51,865 nucleotides of DNA. It comes from Pseudomonadales bacterium. GTDB taxonomy: Bacteria; Pseudomonadota; Gammaproteobacteria; Pseudomonadales; JAHRWD01. The position numbers and the translations under genes are program-made. Numbering within the stretch: the first letter of the stretch is position 1; every line of letters starts with the position of its first letter. The notes beneath the pieces are model-generated. The model saw only the letters and a list, made by a program, of their open reading frames with translations, did not search any database and had not been told where the DNA came from. The stretch spans positions 1-51,865 of the forward strand of contig JAESUM010000065.1 in NCBI GenBank assembly GCA_016763075.1, read 5' to 3'. This document shows, in pieces, positions 691 to 14,000 of this stretch.

Positions 691-2774
691 TTACTTAGCC
701 GCGTTGCGCTCTTTGGTCTCTGCAATAACTACTTCAGAAACGTTTTTCGGGCATGGCAGGTAGTGCGAGAACTCCATAGAGAACTGACCACGACCAGAGG
801 TCATGGTACGCAGTGTGCCGATGTAACCAAACATTTCAGCCAGTGGAACGTCGGCCTTAACACGTACACCGGTAACGCCTTTCTCTTGGTCTTTGATCAT
901 GCCGCGACGACGGTTCAAATCACCAATTACGTCGCCAACGTGATCGTCTGGAGTGAACACGTCAACTTTCATGATCGGCTCAATCAGTTGTGGGCCAGCT
1001 TTAGGCATAGACTGACGATATGCGCCACGGGCAGCAAGCTCAAACGCTACCGCGGATGAATCGACTGCGTGGTAGCCACCGTCGTACAGTTCAATTTCAA
1101 CGTCGAGTACTGGGAATTCAGCCAATGGGCCTTTTTCCATCATGCCTCTGAAGCCTTTTTCGATCGCAGGGAAGAATTCTTTAGGAACGTTACCGCCGGT
1201 CACGCTTGAGGTAAATACGTAGCCAGTACCTGGCTCGCCTGGTTTGATACGGTAATCGATCTTACCGAACTGTCCAGAACCACCTGATTGCTTCTTGTGG
1301 GTGTAGGTATCGTCGATTTCTTCGGTGATGGTTTCGCGGTATGCCACTTGTGGCTGGCCTACTTCTAATTCAACATCGTAAGTACGTTTAAGAATATCAA
1401 CTTTAATATCCAGGTGAAGTTCGCCCATTCCTTTAAGGATGGTTTCGCCTGAATCGATGTCTGTTTCAACGCGGAACGAAGGATCTTCTGCAATCATTTT
1501 ACCGATAGCAATACCCATTTTTTCAGAGCCGCCTTTGTCTTTCGGTGAAACTGCAATCGAAATTACAGGCTCAGGGAAGATCATTGGCTCAAGTGTGGAT
1601 GGGTTTTTAGGGTCGCAAAGTGTGTGACCGGTTTGTACGTTTTTCATGCCCACGATAGCGATGATATCGCCTGCTTGTGCGCTGGAAATCTCGTTTCGGT
1701 CATCGGCGTGCATCTCAACCATTCGGCCGATACGCTCGGTTTTACCGGTGTAGGTGTTAAGAATGGTGTCGCCTTTGTTCAATACGCCGGAGTAAATTCG
1801 AACGAAAGTCAGTGCGCCAAAACGGTCTTCCATAATTTTGAAGGCCAATGCTCTGAAGGGCTCATCGATAGAAACCGTAGCTACTTCGCCAGTATCGTTG
1901 CCGTCTTCATCGGTCAGTGGCTGAGGCTTTACTTCGGTTGGGCTTGGCAGGTAATCAACAACCGCATCCAAAATAAGTTGAACACCTTTGTTTTTAAAGG
2001 CTGAACCACAGTATGTTGGGAAGAAGTCGAGTGCGGTGGTGCCCTTACGGATGCATCGTTTGATATCTTCCATGGCTGGCTCTTCGCCTTCCATATATTG
2101 CATCATCACGTCGTCGTCTTGCTCAACCGCCATTTCGATCAACTTTTCGCGGTACTCTTCAACTAGCTCAACCATATCCGCTGGGACATCGGAGACTTCA
2201 AAGTTTTCAGGTTCGCCGCTGTCATCCCATATGTAGGATTTGCGAGTTAGCAGGTCGACCATTCCTACAAAACCGTCTTCAACCCCAATAGGTAAGACCA
2301 TCACCATCGGGTTAGCGCCGAGTACTTTTTTGACCTGTGTCACTACCCGAAGGAAGTCAGCACCGACTCGGTCAAGTTTGTTGACGAAGATAATACGCGC
2401 AACTTCAGATTCGTTCGCATACGCCAGTTGGTTTCAGACTGAGGCTCAACGCCGCCAGAACCACAGAAAACACCTACACCGCCATCGAGTACTTTAAGCG
2501 AACGATACACTTCAATGGTGAAGTCAACGTGGCCCGGGGTATCAATGATGTTGAAACGGTGATCTCTCCAGTAGCAAGTGGTTGCAGCTGACTGAATGGT
2601 TATGCCTCGCTCCTGCTCTTGTTCCATGAAATCAGTGGTCGCTGCACCGTCGTGCACCTCACCTGTTTTATGGATTTTTCCGGTGAGCTTTAGGATACGT
2701 TCCGTAGTGGTGGTTTTGCCTGCGTCAACGTGGGCGAAAATACCAATGTTTCTGTAGTGGCTTAAGTCAGTCAT
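691..2774 (-). pseudogene. fusB: Elongation factor G, second gammaproteobacterial copy (EF-G2), one-base frameshift
   Basis: EF-G is the GTPase that drives ribosome translocation. Codons 1-117 (from ATG 2774) hold the P-loop [13 protein letters not shown], the switch region RGITIQSA and the DTPGHVD motif. The remaining domains II-V continue in another frame down to 691. Together they make about 694 residues, normal for the family. The sequence resembles the Vibrio/Shewanella paralogue ([16 protein letters not shown] is typical), and there is no rpsL, rpsG or tuf beside it, so I read it as the second copy, not the str-operon gene. The frame breaks near 2420: CGT-ATG-CG should be CGT-TAT-GCG (R-Y-A), so one T is missing. 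Either the gene is newly inactivated or this is a sequence error; flanking codons show no other decay. Confidence 0.85.
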
Positions 2775-2946
2775 TGCTTTGCTCTGAGTTTGAAAGGGCT
2801 GAAAATTGCGCGGGATTATACCCGAAATTTGATGATGCGTACTACCGGATTTTAGTCTAAGTTTGGATAAATATTATCCAGAAAAGGCATTAATTTGAGG
2901 TATTCGGGAGGAATATCGAGACCAAGGCCAAAATAGCACGCGTTAT

Positions 2947-2984
2947 GCTATCAGCAGTGCCTATGGTGGGCCACTGTTGATAGC
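2947..2984. repeat. Intergenic hairpin, 13-bp arms with one mismatch
   Basis: GCTATCAGCAGTG (2947-2959) and CACTGTTGATAGC (2972-2984) form a stem with one mismatch and a 12-base loop. It sits between the M20 peptidase stop (3052) and the EF-G start (2774), both on the minus strand. No clear T run follows on that strand, so terminator function is uncertain. Confidence 0.4.
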
Positions 2985-3051
2985 TTCTTGTTCGAGTGCC
3001 TAATCGAGGTTTTGGTTGAAAGGTAGCCTGATCCAACCTTTACATTACCGG

Positions 3052-4548
3052 CTAATTTGCGTTGATTGAATCCATGTTAAGGATCAGCTGCGCGTAAAAC
3101 TGAATCATTCGTTGGTAGTCTGCTATTTTTATTCGCTCATTAACACCGTGAATTCGGCTAAGGTCTTCGGGGGCCATTACGTACGGGGCGAACCGGTAGT
3201 TGTTATCAGCAACTGCTTGGTAGTGCACCGAATCTGTACCCCCTAGCACCAAACCCGGTGCAAATATAGAACCCGGAAATAATTGCCTTGCAGTCACCCC
3301 TATCGCTAAAAAAGCCGCGGTATCTGCCGCAGATATCGCCGAAGGTTCATTGTCGATACTGAGCATTGAGCGCTCAACGGTTACCGCCGAATTGGCAATG
3401 ACCGCATTGGCGTGGCGGATAACATCTTCGGAAGTTTCCCCCGGGATGATGCGAAAATTCACCATGGCGGTTGCTTGAGAAGGCAAAACGTTCTCTTTAA
3501 CCCCAGCATGGATCATTGAAACCGCGGTGGTGGTTCGGATCATCGCTGCTGTCGAATGTTGCTGCTCAAGAATAAAAGTAATCACGCCATCAAATAACCA
3601 TCGATTGGCCAACAGAGTTTTTTCCACGAGGCTCATTTCAGGGCCAAGGAAGTTAAACATGTGCTCAGCGGCACCTGTAATGCCTGAAGGCCGCTGGTTT
3701 TCTTCAAGCGCTGTAATGGCCTTAGCCAACGTGCCGGTAGAGCTTATTGGTGTGGGCATAGAGGTATGCCCACCGGTTACTTTTGCGGTGATTTTGAGTG
3801 TCAGGTAACCCTTTTCTGCGATGCCAATAATAGCGGTAGGTTTTTTTGCAGGCGAAAGCCGCGAGTCCAACACCACCATACCCTCGTCGAGGGTGAACAA
3901 AGAGCTGATGTTATGTTTGGCCATGTATTGTGCAATGAACGCTGCGCCTTGGTCTCCGCCAATCTCTTCATCATGGCCAAACGCCAAATAAACCGTTCGA
4001 GCTGGTTTGAAACCCGAGGCGATAAGATGCTCGACAGCCTCTAATACGCCAAACACAGAGGCTTTGTCATCTAATGCGCCGCGGCCCCAAATAAAGCCTT
4101 CCTCTATTGCACCGGAAAATGGCGGATAGGTCCATTGGCCAATAGAAATAGCCTCTGGCGGCACTACATCGTGATGGGCCAAAAAGGTAATGGGTTTTAG
4201 CGCTGCATTTGAGCCAGGCCACTTAAACAGAAGAGATTTCTGGTTAATGAGGGTTCGCTCAAGATGTAGGGCAACCTGTGGGTAGTGACTGGAAATTAAC
4301 TCAATCAGCTCTATAAATGGTTGGTCGGTGGCATCTTCCGGGTTTTGGTGTGAAATTGTTTTGAGTTGAACGGCGCTGGAGAGCCGCTGTGCAGCGGCCG
4401 CGGCATCCACGGATATGGGCTCAATTGCGCTGAAGTCAGGTTGCTTTGATGTGAACCGTAATGTGTTGACCAAAATAGCAGCTGCGAGGATAACGAACAG
4501 CGCAAGCGCAACTAGCGATAGACGCCTAGCAGAGGTACGAAATGACAT
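3052..4548 (-). CDS. M20 family metallopeptidase, PM20D1/carboxypeptidase S-like
   Basis: 498 residues. An N-terminal hydrophobic segment at about 10-30 (signal anchor or signal peptide) places the enzyme outside the cytoplasm or on the membrane. Zinc and catalytic motifs of the M20 family are visible: HHDVVP (H125, D127), GRGALDDK (D160), GHDEEIGG (E194 catalytic, E195 metal) and LDEG near 220. The segments MIRTTTAVSMIHAGVKEN and RIHGVNERI are strikingly like animal PM20D1, which makes and breaks N-acyl amino acids. A role in hydrolysing N-acyl amino acids or peptides is therefore likely, but the substrate is inferred. The gene stands alone, 128 bases from the divergent gene at 4677. Confidence 0.85.
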   Translation of the reverse strand: MSFRTSARRLSLVALALFVILAAAILVNTLRFTSKQPDFSAIEPISVDAAAAAQRLSSAVQLKTISHQNPEDATDQPFIELIELISSHYPQVALHLERTLINQKSLLFKWPGSNAALKPITFLAHHDVVPPEAISIGQWTYPPFSGAIEEGFIWGRGALDDKASVFGVLEAVEHLIASGFKPARTVYLAFGHDEEIGGDQGAAFIAQYMAKHNISSLFTLDEGMVVLDSRLSPAKKPTAIIGIAEKGYLTLKITAKVTGGHTSMPTPISSTGTLAKAITALEENQRPSGITGAAEHMFNFLGPEMSLVEKTLLANRWLFDGVITFILEQQHSTAAMIRTTTAVSMIHAGVKENVLPSQATAMVNFRIIPGETSEDVIRHANAVIANSAVTVERSMLSIDNEPSAISAADTAAFLAIGVTARQLFPGSIFAPGLVLGGTDSVHYQAVADNNYRFAPYVMAPEDLSRIHGVNERIKIADYQRMIQFYAQLILNMDSINAN

Positions 4549-10879: not shown

Positions 10880-12082
10880 ATGACTACGTTACAGACAATA
10901 GAAAATAACTATGACTTCTCTGAAATGCATGATTCTATTCAAACGTATGTCGATAAAAATATATTAAGTGGTGCGTCGTCCGTTGTGTTAAAAAACAACG
11001 AAATTGTTGATGTAAAAATGTGGGGCCAAATGGACATGGAAAATAACAAACCCATGCAAAGCGACACCATCTTTAGGATTTTCTCCAATACAAAAAAAGT
11101 AGTGTCTGTTGCAGCCATGATTATGTATGACAGAGCTGCTTTTAATCTGGATGACCCGCTAGAAAAATATATTCCCGAGTTTGAAAAATTACGTGTTCTA
11201 AAATCTGGCGCAGAAGACCCCACGCAAACCGAAGCCCTCAATAGTGCACCAACAGTCAGACAATTGATGTGCCATAACGCTGGGTTTTCTTACGGAATAT
11301 TTGTTGAATCAGCAGTGGATACTCTCTATTTGGACCAAAATATTTTGGATGCAAATAACACCCTTGAACAAATGGTTAAAAAACTGGGAGAGATTCCTTT
11401 AGCGTCGCAACCGGGCAGCCGCTGGCAATACAGCGTGTCGGTAGATGTATTGGGAAGGTTAGTAGAAATTTGGTCAGGCCTACCGCTGGACCAATTCTTA
11501 CAAGAAAATATTTTCGAACCGTTGTCGATGAAAGACAGCGGGTTTTACGTGCCAAAAGAAAGCCATCATCGGTTGGCAGCCAACTATGTGCCAGTTAACC
11601 CGTTAGACCCAATGGAAGGTGGTTTAACCCTACAGCCCGATCACCCTATAGGCGCAACGACCACCCCTAAAAAGTTATTCTCGGGCGGCGCAGGCTTAGC
11701 TTCAACGCTCGGTGACTACACTAACTTTATACAGATGCTAATTGGCAAGGGAGAATGGCAGGGCAACCGAATTCTAAAACCAGAAACGGTAAAGCTGATG
11801 CACACCAATCAGTTGCCCAAAGGTGTTGGTTTAGTACTACCAAACTGGCCGATGGAGAATACTGGTTTTGGGCTTGGCTTAGCAGTGAAAAGCGCGCCGG
11901 GTGAAGGCGAGCCAGATGCAGCTAAAGGCGAATACCACTGGGGCGGCCTTGCGGGTACTCATTCCTGGGTATCACCAGAAACTGGAATTGCAGGGATTAT
12001 ATTTACCCAACGATTGCCGGGCTTCTTTCATCCTTTTAGTCAGGACTTCAAACGGTTGGTTTATGATGTGCTTGCTGAATAG
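10880..12082 (+). CDS. Serine hydrolase, beta-lactamase-fold (class C/family VIII) esterase
   Basis: 400 residues with the penicillin-binding-protein fold. The nucleophile motif SxxK is S69-N-T-K72, the YxS-type motif is Y184-S-V (in RWQYSVSVDVLG) and WGGLAGT near 353 replaces the KTG box, as in family VIII esterases such as EstB. No signal peptide is visible, so it is probably cytoplasmic and an esterase rather than a beta-lactamase. Placed after the SDR and BVMOs, it fits hydrolysis of the ester or lactone made by them. AAGGAA lies seven bases before ATG 10880. Confidence 0.87.
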   Translation: MTTLQTIENNYDFSEMHDSIQTYVDKNILSGASSVVLKNNEIVDVKMWGQMDMENNKPMQSDTIFRIFSNTKKVVSVAAMIMYDRAAFNLDDPLEKYIPEFEKLRVLKSGAEDPTQTEALNSAPTVRQLMCHNAGFSYGIFVESAVDTLYLDQNILDANNTLEQMVKKLGEIPLASQPGSRWQYSVSVDVLGRLVEIWSGLPLDQFLQENIFEPLSMKDSGFYVPKESHHRLAANYVPVNPLDPMEGGLTLQPDHPIGATTTPKKLFSGGAGLASTLGDYTNFIQMLIGKGEWQGNRILKPETVKLMHTNQLPKGVGLVLPNWPMENTGFGLGLAVKSAPGEGEPDAAKGEYHWGGLAGTHSWVSPETGIAGIIFTQRLPGFFHPFSQDFKRLVYDVLAE

Positions 12083-12133
12083 TTATTTGTTTTTTTGGAT
12101 GTTAACACGGTTGCTGAGAAACAAGATAAAGCG

Positions 12134-12655
12134 ATGGAAATAGAAACAGCGCAAACTCTAATCGAGTTGCTTCAAGCAGTGCTATCGAAGCCAGATAGTA
12201 CTGCGACAGCCGCTTATATCACAATTGGTGGAATGTTCGGCGTTGCCGCAATTACTGCGGTTACGCAATGGTTAGTTACTAAATCTATCATTCGTTCAGA
12301 GCATGCAAGACTCCATACACAGCTTCGTTCTGATTTTGAACTGAATCAATTCGCGAAATGGCAAGATGAAATAGTGACGGTGGTTTCTGAGTTGCTTACA
12401 CATACTGACCTTGAAGTTTGCCCCGCACCGCAGCGTGAAAAGGTGGTGCCCTTAATACTAAAGACACAACTTCTTTTGAATTTGAATGTTCAAGTGCATA
12501 GGAATATCAATAATTTGGTTAATGAGTTGGGGCTCGCTGTAACTAAGTGGGAAGCACGTGGCGTATCTGAAATACTAGGTATACATAGCAGGCTACTGGA
12601 AGCTGCGCGTGAGGCCATTTATTTACCTGGCCGGCAAGCTCATTCACCTCGATGA
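12134..12655 (+). CDS. Hypothetical single-pass membrane protein
   Basis: 173 residues from ATG 12134; an upstream ATG at 12095 would add 13 residues and neither start has a clear ribosome site. One membrane segment lies near residues 25-50 (IGGMFGVAAITAVTQWLV), followed by a helical, Leu/Val/Glu-rich cytoplasmic part that could form a coiled coil. No family recognised. It starts 51 bases after the esterase and may be cotranscribed, though its composition does not tie it to the catabolic cluster. Immediately downstream is a relic of a yoeB 3' end on the other strand. Confidence 0.55.
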   Translation: MEIETAQTLIELLQAVLSKPDSTATAAYITIGGMFGVAAITAVTQWLVTKSIIRSEHARLHTQLRSDFELNQFAKWQDEIVTVVSELLTHTDLEVCPAPQREKVVPLILKTQLLLNLNVQVHRNINNLVNELGLAVTKWEARGVSEILGIHSRLLEAAREAIYLPGRQAHSPR

Positions 12656-12656
12656 G

Positions 12657-12701
12657 TTAGCTATAGGAATACCGAAGTTGAGCGATCAATATTGTATCGT
12701 T
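12657..12701 (-). pseudogene. Relic copy of yoeB 3' end
   Basis: Read on the minus strand these 45 bases encode NDTILIAQLRYSYS plus stop, one residue different from the C-terminus of the intact YoeB at 12781 (NDTILIAQLRYHYS). Only these 14 codons remain. The two stop codons are 124 bases apart, with a short hairpin element between them. Confidence 0.8.
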
Positions 12702-12709
12702 TTATCTCG

Positions 12710-12731
12710 TTCCCACGCTCCCGCGTAGGAA
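12710..12731. repeat. Short palindromic repeat (GTTCCCACGC-type)
   Basis: TTCCCACGC (12710-12718) and GCGTAGGAA (12723-12731) form a hairpin with one mismatch and a 4-base loop. The wording resembles a palindromic repeat common in gammaproteobacterial intergenic DNA. It lies between the yoeB relic and intact yoeB and may have arrived with the rearrangement there. Confidence 0.5.
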
Positions 12732-12780
12732 TGCATACTAACTATTATCCATTAATATGCGGCTTATGCTGAGGTTGTTA

Positions 12781-13038
12781 TCAACTGTAGTGATATCGAA
12801 GCTGAGCGATCAATATCGTATCATTTTGAAATTTATAAACGATACGGTGCTCATCATTAATCCGACGAGACCAATAGCCAGCAAGCCCATGCTTTAGTGG
12901 CTCCGGCTTGCCGATGCCTTGGTAGGGCGAGCGGTTAATATCTTTGATGAGGGTATTGATTCTTTTTAGCGTTTTTTTATCGGTATGTTGCCAGTAAAGG
13001 TAATGCTCCCAGGCGATCGAAGAGAACGTTACCTTCAT
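12781..13038 (-). CDS. yoeB: YoeB toxin, ribosome-dependent mRNA endonuclease
   Basis: 85 residues, the usual YoeB length. YLYWQHTDKKTLKRINTLI, GKPEPLKH, GYWSRRINDEHRIVYKF and the final RYHYS all match the family; E and R of the SRRI-EHR region and the C-terminal His-Tyr form the RNase site. YoeB cleaves mRNA in the ribosomal A site when not bound by YefM. Its ATG overlaps the antitoxin stop by four bases, the standard translational coupling for this pair. Confidence 0.95.
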   Translation of the reverse strand: MKVTFSSIAWEHYLYWQHTDKKTLKRINTLIKDINRSPYQGIGKPEPLKHGLAGYWSRRINDEHRIVYKFQNDTILIAQLRYHYS

Positions 13039-13286
13039 TCAATAAGTTCTCTTTGGGTGCCTTTACCTGCCTCCAGCTCAGCAATGGACTCGAGTAATTG
13101 CCCGGCGTTAGCCGGTGAGCGAAGCAGGTACGTGGTTTCCTCCATTGCCTGATAATCCTCGAGGGACATCATGACTACTGGGCTTTCGCTTTTGCGGGTG
13201 ATGATGATAGGTGCGTGGTCTTCGCAAACCTTCGCCATTGTACGGGCAAGGTTTGCGCGAGCGGCGGTGTAACTAATGGCATCCAT
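13035..13286 (-). CDS. yefM: YefM antitoxin
   Basis: 83 residues from ATG 13286; a TTG twelve bases further up is open but GGAG sits correctly for 13286, and E. coli YefM is the same size. The N-terminal Phd/YefM DNA-binding fold (MDAISYTAARANLARTM, then ITRKSESPVVMMSLEDYQAMEET) is followed by an acidic C-terminal tail that would neutralise YoeB. It should repress its own promoter just upstream, with YoeB as corepressor. The pair is a self-contained module between unrelated genes. Confidence 0.93.
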   Translation of the reverse strand: MDAISYTAARANLARTMAKVCEDHAPIIITRKSESPVVMMSLEDYQAMEETTYLLRSPANAGQLLESIAELEAGKGTQRELIE

Positions 13287-13475
13287 GGAAGGCTCCAAAG
13301 TAGGCGTGTACGGTTATACGTACAGGCATCCTAGGTGGCCCCAGCGTTTAGGTCAAGTTGATTTCAGCATCCGTTGCATGGGCTGCGGATTTTTGGGTCA
13401 TTGGATTTTGCGAATGCAGCACATGATGTATTAAGATATTACGGCTCCTCTACTTATGCCTGCAAGGAGTACGTT

Positions 13476-14000
13476 CTATTTATCCCAAACCGATGGTTTT
13501 ACCGCCTTTGGTTCTTCAGCAGCTTGATCGCTTTCGTTTGAGGGTTTTCGGTATTTGATCTGAACGCCCTTCAAAAAATTACGTAATATTTGATCTTTAC
13601 ATTCACGGTAGTGGCTGTTGGTTGGCTTTCTAAAAAATGAACTCAGTTCATGTTCGCTCATTACAAAATCGGCGGATTCTAGAATCTCTAGTATTTCGTT
13701 TGATTTTAAGTTGAGTGCAATTTTTAGTTTCTTGAAGACAATATTATTGGAAAGTCGTTTCTCTGGCTTGGGTTGATCACCTTCCTTTTTTCCACGCCGA
13801 CTAATAATAAAGCCATTTAAAAATGTCGCCATTTCTACGTCGTGGAATTTTTTAAAATCAGTATCTTCTTCTTTTTTTAACCAGTTACTAATTTCTGCAC
13901 GGGTGACTTGTTTTTCAGCGAGCCGAAAAATAGCAATCATTTTGGTATCGCTAAAGTCAAAGGCGTAGCGAAGTCGGCGTAGAATATCGTTGTTAGTCAA
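13476..14000 (-). CDS. DUF1456 (YehS) family protein
   Basis: 174 residues with two repeats of the DUF1456 domain: the first starts at ILRRLRYAFDFSDTKMI and the second at NNIVFKKLKIALNLKSNEI, each ending with an F-L-x-G motif (FLNGFI, FLKGVQ). The same arrangement is seen in E. coli YehS. Function is unknown; the fold is helical and probably binds nucleic acid or protein. A basic/Pro C-terminal tail from about residue 155 is extra. The cvfB-type gene lies upstream on the same strand, 63 bases away. Confidence 0.88.
   Translation of the reverse strand: MTNNDILRRLRYAFDFSDTKMIAIFRLAEKQVTRAEISNWLKKEEDTDFKKFHDVEMATFLNGFIISRRGKKEGDQPKPEKRLSNNIVFKKLKIALNLKSNEILEILESADFVMSEHELSSFFRKPTNSHYRECKDQILRNFLKGVQIKYRKPSNESDQAAEEPKAVKPSVWDK

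Follow-up and report, generated by a model that had tools for sequence, protein, structure and literature searches.

Why should one stretch of DNA carry the 3′ end of a toxin gene twice, in the same orientation, with a palindrome in between? The question is raised by the window studied here, by which we mean the whole stretch analysed (51,865 nucleotides of a Pseudomonadales bacterium; assembly GCA_016763075.1, contig JAESUM010000065.1). A first-pass annotation had reported, 124 bases past the end of an intact yoeB, a second yoeB end of 14 codons plus stop, and had proposed either that an element or incoming toxin-antitoxin module had entered an older yoeB, taking the place of most of it and restoring the frame, or that a second such locus was lost by deletion.

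An intact yefM-yoeB pair and a second yoeB end

YoeB cleaves mRNA in a ribosome-dependent manner and is neutralised by YefM. In the window, the intact toxin gene yoeB (12781..13038, minus strand, 85 aa; PF06769, E 2e-37; TIGR02116 above cut-off) has as upstream partner the overlapping, intact antitoxin gene yefM (13035..13286, minus strand; PF02604, E 9e-24; NF008499, E 1.4e-34, just below cut-off), for which we adopted the ATG at 13286 as start, the list of open reading frames having the TTG at 13298. Residues 1-84 of the window YoeB align without gaps to E. coli YoeB (PDB 2a6q), and the C-terminal end reads NDTILIAQLRYHYS-TGA.

The second end occupies 12657..12703 on the minus strand and reads NDTILIAQLRYSYS-TAA at 12701-12657. 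A repeat search of the window returned it as a direct repeat (12661-12703 and 12785-12827, 84% identity, spacing 124). When the window YoeB was compared with the window by tblastn, three matches were obtained: the gene itself, a match of residues 72-85 to 12701-12660 (E 3e-4), and another at chance level (E 4.4). In a BLAST search of its own genome with a 151-base query (12640-12790), the sole match besides self was the intact yoeB end (E 2e-6). The resemblance of the second end to yoeB is therefore not due to chance, and sequence, open reading frames, repeat search and tblastn agree on the second end as first reported. The earlier statement that the copy starts exactly at AAC holds for the reading frame, which opens there only because a TAA directly precedes it; the homology at the base level reaches further, to 12703. 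No other piece of yefM or yoeB, a 5′ relic included, rose above chance level in the window by tblastn.

The second end does not form a complete open reading frame with a start: it has 14 codons, with a stop immediately upstream. As it has no start codon and follows directly on a stop, it is untranslatable alone. Moreover, it carries Ser where the intact YoeB has His83, a position that aligns to His83 of E. coli YoeB, a catalytic residue of the toxin. Given the missing start, the upstream stop and the altered His83 position, we see no reason to assign it a function and regard it as a putative non-functional scar, referred to below as the relic.

The two ends probably diverged as separate genes

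The same orientation of the two ends and the short distance between them are what would be left if the yoeB end had recently been duplicated in tandem on the spot, as slippage might do, but their divergence speaks against such an origin. Indeed, the intact and relic ends share just 36 of 44 bases, and their stop codons differ, TGA in the intact gene and TAA in the relic. Over the 42 coding bases, eight differences are spread over seven of the 14 codons, and these are mostly silent, a single residue being changed (H83 to S); under random base changes, one residue change or fewer has a probability of 5e-5, or 4e-4 with a transition bias. Seven altered codons with one altered residue suggest that two genes diverged under selection at the protein level before the truncation.

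Compared with the relic, the yoeB tails of other genomes reach at best 37 of 44 identical bases, then 36 of 44, the same value as the neighbouring intact end. The relic lineage is, by these counts, apparently about as distant from the intact yoeB as the yoeB genes of related species are from one another. Since the differences are mostly silent and the neighbouring end is no more similar to the relic than are tails from other genomes, the relic was most likely part of a separate, working yoeB during most of its history, the truncation coming later. The second end is therefore, as far as the sequence tells, not a fresh tandem copy, and we give a recent duplication almost no credence.

The palindrome and the junction

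The 77 bases separating the two ends contain no gene: they consist of a 42-base spacer after the intact yoeB stop (12739..12780, no strand) with no recognised feature, a 33-base REP-like palindrome (12706..12738, minus strand; GTATGCATTCC...GGAACGAG, an exact pattern match) and two junction bases (12704..12705, no strand) at the edge of the conserved core. The palindromic repeat said to precede the copy is thus present, set off from it by these two bases. No Rfam family was found in 12000-13600, nor a terminator-like site in 12500-13500.

In the window, the palindrome pattern has one occurrence against 0 expected by chance. Other genomes of this order contain the same repeat, with the consensus GTATGCATTCCCACGC-N-GGAGCGTGGGAACGAG. 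In 32 other copies, conservation drops directly after ...GAACGAG and before GTAT; the inner columns of this alignment were selected by the search pattern and the outer columns were not. From this boundary of the conserved core and the position of the junction, it follows that the yoeB homology stops two bases short of a complete palindrome.

The likeness to REPs, as they are described in PMC3733652, lies in an imperfect palindrome of 33 bases, downstream of a gene and between convergent genes, and the palindrome falls outside genes and within the 20-40 base range. It differs in its ends, GTAT and CTCG instead of the GTAG or CGTC tags described there, and it lacks the high copy number of REPs, with two places in the 2.65 Mb of its own genome at up to two mismatches, here and on contig C23. 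As to a REP-associated tyrosine transposase (RAYT), two Y1_Tnp matches above cut-off were found in the same genome, on contigs other than those with palindrome copies. By analogy with the role considered for REPs in PMC3733652, the 3′ end of the yoeB transcript may be where the palindrome acts, but the search for a terminator-like site was negative.

Two other places in the genome can be mentioned here. On C23, near copies of the palindrome form a close pair between a RecQ-like helicase gene and an acyl-CoA dehydrogenase-like gene, both named by eye (L071, G000:C23:30000-36000, about 2690-2850). C49 carries a decayed second yoeB and, some 0.8 kb from it, an ORF for a Y1-type (RAYT-like) transposase that is interrupted by a stop close to its start (L072, G000:C49:1-6000, 1540-2850).

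A 47-base repeat that takes in the 3′ terminus of an intact gene would resemble, in its anatomy, the attachment-like ends of an integrative element that entered at the yoeB 3′ end, made the gene whole again and was afterwards reduced to 77 bases. Such a pair would consist of near-identical repeats around an island bearing an integrase; here the repeat is just 84% identical, what it encloses is spacer and palindrome only, and a second tail was found at none of 80 other named yoeB loci, in flanks of up to 3 kb that would miss large islands. We consider this origin very improbable.

The same site in a congeneric genome

Beside the relic lies a convergent ORF of 186 aa (12095..12655, plus strand) whose stop is one base from the relic stop and which has no match in Pfam, NCBIfam or PADLOC. 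Relatives of this ORF were found in only 2 of the 273 other genomes of the class searched; the homologue in one genome (G487) ends six codons earlier and has a GNAT-like gene nearby. In a genome of the same genus (G001) the flanking genes are the same, with a beta-lactamase family protein on one side and DUF1456 on the other, and its DNA matches the window up to 12137 and again from 13545 (13477 if a 24-base piece is counted). Between these flanks, the place of yefM-yoeB is taken in G001 by a GNAT-like gene (named by eye); aligned globally, the two variable stretches gave nothing informative beyond their shared edges.

G001's own closest yoeB, identical at 89% of residues, is found elsewhere, beside ctaA (named by eye). 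The unit common to both genomes comprises the promoter region, yefM and yoeB, to just past the stop (12775..13326, minus strand; blastn, 80% to G001 C14 over exactly 12775-13326), the matching beginning about 40 bases before the yefM ATG and stopping just past the yoeB stop; another genome (G045) matches it at 82% over 12773-13325. Conversely, the ctaA site of the window's own genome is without yefM-yoeB and has instead a RelE-like ORF and an IS3-like transposase, both named by eye from translations. As the module is present at one site in each congener and absent from the other's site, it seems to have moved between sites as a unit, and both spots are places of changing cargo. The G001 site behind ctaA (L067, G001:C14:258000-270000; own-genome counterpart L201, G000:C70:12500-16000) also has, beside yefM-yoeB, a second RelE/ParE-like pair (named by eye).

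That the sites differ in two congeners, and hence that the module does arrive anew, suits the main rival to a loss, in which a yefM-yoeB module arrived together with its flank and the palindrome and, by recombining into an older resident or by replacing most of it, left just the old 3′ end. The origin of the two ends from diverged genes, the shared orientation of module and relic, and the position of the relic on the 3′ side are also in keeping with it. However, the window has no 5′ relic of an older module, and four relatives match the intact module at an even level of identity throughout, except at the promoter end, so that the intact yoeB gives no signal of a hybrid gene. This lends no support to the idea, put forward in the first-pass annotation, of an insertion that restored the frame; a replacement that also took away the old 5′ part is compatible with the data. 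As the search gave neither a 5′ relic nor a sign that the intact gene is a mosaic, loss is more likely than an insertion into an older yoeB, and we hold replacement by an incoming module to be unlikely, though worth keeping in mind.

Integron cassette traffic in this genus is possible. An integron integrase above cut-off was found in the window's own genome (G000, at C79) and in G001, where contig C5 (L228, G001:C5:1-14000) carries a chromosomal integron, with two 97-base attC-like repeats, 79% identical, at 37-133 and 540-636, and an integrase at 2164-3108. No match to these repeats was found in window positions 11901-13700; an attC motif scan was also blank there, but it was blank on the G001 repeats too.

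The own genome is a draft of 95 contigs and the yoeB genes of relatives are similar, which would suit a misjoining of yoeB-bearing fragments from different cells. Yet a complete palindrome adjoins the relic, which is not close to a contig end, and the gene order on both of its flanks matches that of the same-genus genome, which makes an assembly artefact most improbable.

Search for the arrangement in other genomes

In the flanks of the named yoeB loci of relatives (the best 80 of 349, the window serving as positive control), neither a second yoeB tail nor the palindrome was found at any of the 80, two of which (L078, L145) have fewer than 124 bases downstream and one of which (L148) has a broken yoeB and is uninformative. 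The window is thus akin to type II YefM-YoeB modules (PF02604/PF06769, TIGR02116) in its intact overlapping pair and full-length YoeB above curated cut-offs, and differs from them in its extra downstream 3′ relic. A yoeB tail no more than 30 bases beyond the palindrome was found in one of 369 genomes of the class, the own genome, and, with a stricter pattern, nowhere in viral contigs.

A search for the yoeB tail gave 55 places in 53 of 390 genomes of the order; its pattern needs a near-intact tail and misses the window's own relic, so that relics are undercounted. The places comprise 44 intact genes (our own included), three that are full-length and broken by a stop or frameshift (L173, L177, L182), three truncated at the 5′ side (L209, last 12 codons; L216, residues 40-84; L197, residues 31-84), two at contig ends (L174, L202), two that are not yoeB (L187, L192) and one that is unclear (L212). 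None of the 54 other than ours shows a second tail or the palindrome within the locus examined, contig ends having shortened the flanks of some of these loci. The pattern named beforehand as speaking against an insertion, relatives in which long conserved DNA separates two ends, was not seen in the loci read, and neither were relatives with two ends at all or with two full copies in tandem.

The unit itself was equally absent elsewhere: with the 151-base query, no other genome among 293 of the order had palindrome and yoeB tail in one match, 28 of them matching some part, mostly the palindrome and in few cases the tail. Seven plasmid records matched this query, none covering 80% of it, and no phage did; the plasmid matches to 12095-13300, among those listed (20 of 45 records), fall within yefM-yoeB. 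In the literature on REPs and on transfer and decay of yefM-yoeB, no title concerned the two-ended arrangement and none was relevant to the palindrome strings, which are absent from the main text of PMC3733652 and have no match in PMC3116915.

Among the truncated tails, L209 (G078:C6:7000-9000, minus, about 1010-1110) is the shortest. The 43 bases directly before its tail match a stretch of another locus (L219; 77%, E 0.005) that is, judged by its distance from the tail, the yefM promoter region; L209 looks like the product of a single internal deletion running from promoter to yoeB tail. Loss of a module down to its last dozen codons is thus not unique to the window. The relic shares with such decayed or internally deleted toxin-antitoxin modules a 5′-truncated yoeB tail, which in L209 is fused to the promoter-like stretch, and differs from them in adjoining a palindrome and in lying behind an intact, diverged copy.

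Discussion

The locus displays two yoeB ends in the same orientation, diverged mostly at silent sites, with a complete palindrome two bases from the breakpoint. In our view, the second end is probably the dead 3′ relic of another yefM-yoeB module, lost by a deletion or replacement that ended at the palindrome. Two modules would have come to lie side by side at a spot, flanked by conserved genes, where the cargo differs between species; a deletion, or a replacement, would then have removed everything of the second module between the palindrome and codon 71 of its yoeB, leaving a piece presumably without function. The palindrome may already have stood on the left, so that the deletion came to a halt at it, or may have landed there and helped to cause it.

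Of the two origins first proposed, loss of a second locus by deletion fits best. The divergence under selection, the truncated tails in other genomes of the order, the apparent deletion in L209, and the differing sites of the module, absent from this one in G001 and present elsewhere there, all favour it. Against it stand the old yefM and its promoter, of which the window has no trace, and the fact that no genome was found with both modules in tandem or with a longer relic at this site.

It is doubtful, in our estimate, that the palindrome actively made the breakpoint, such palindromes then acting as one-sided points of cutting or joining that trim neighbouring toxin-antitoxin modules. A breakpoint made in this way would explain why the yoeB homology resumes only two bases past the palindrome end; the link, however, rests on one junction (1 of 369 genomes). 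This is the sole point of wider interest, which a single junction cannot decide: if the palindrome did cause the cut, the influence of REP-like repeats on the loss of genes could be approached at the level of sequence.

In conclusion, the second yoeB end is a known kind of event, an ordinary scar of gene turnover. It is a small fossil of chromosomal toxin-antitoxin modules coming and going, in a genus that has the same module at two spots and where a diverged predecessor or neighbour would have left only its last 14 codons.
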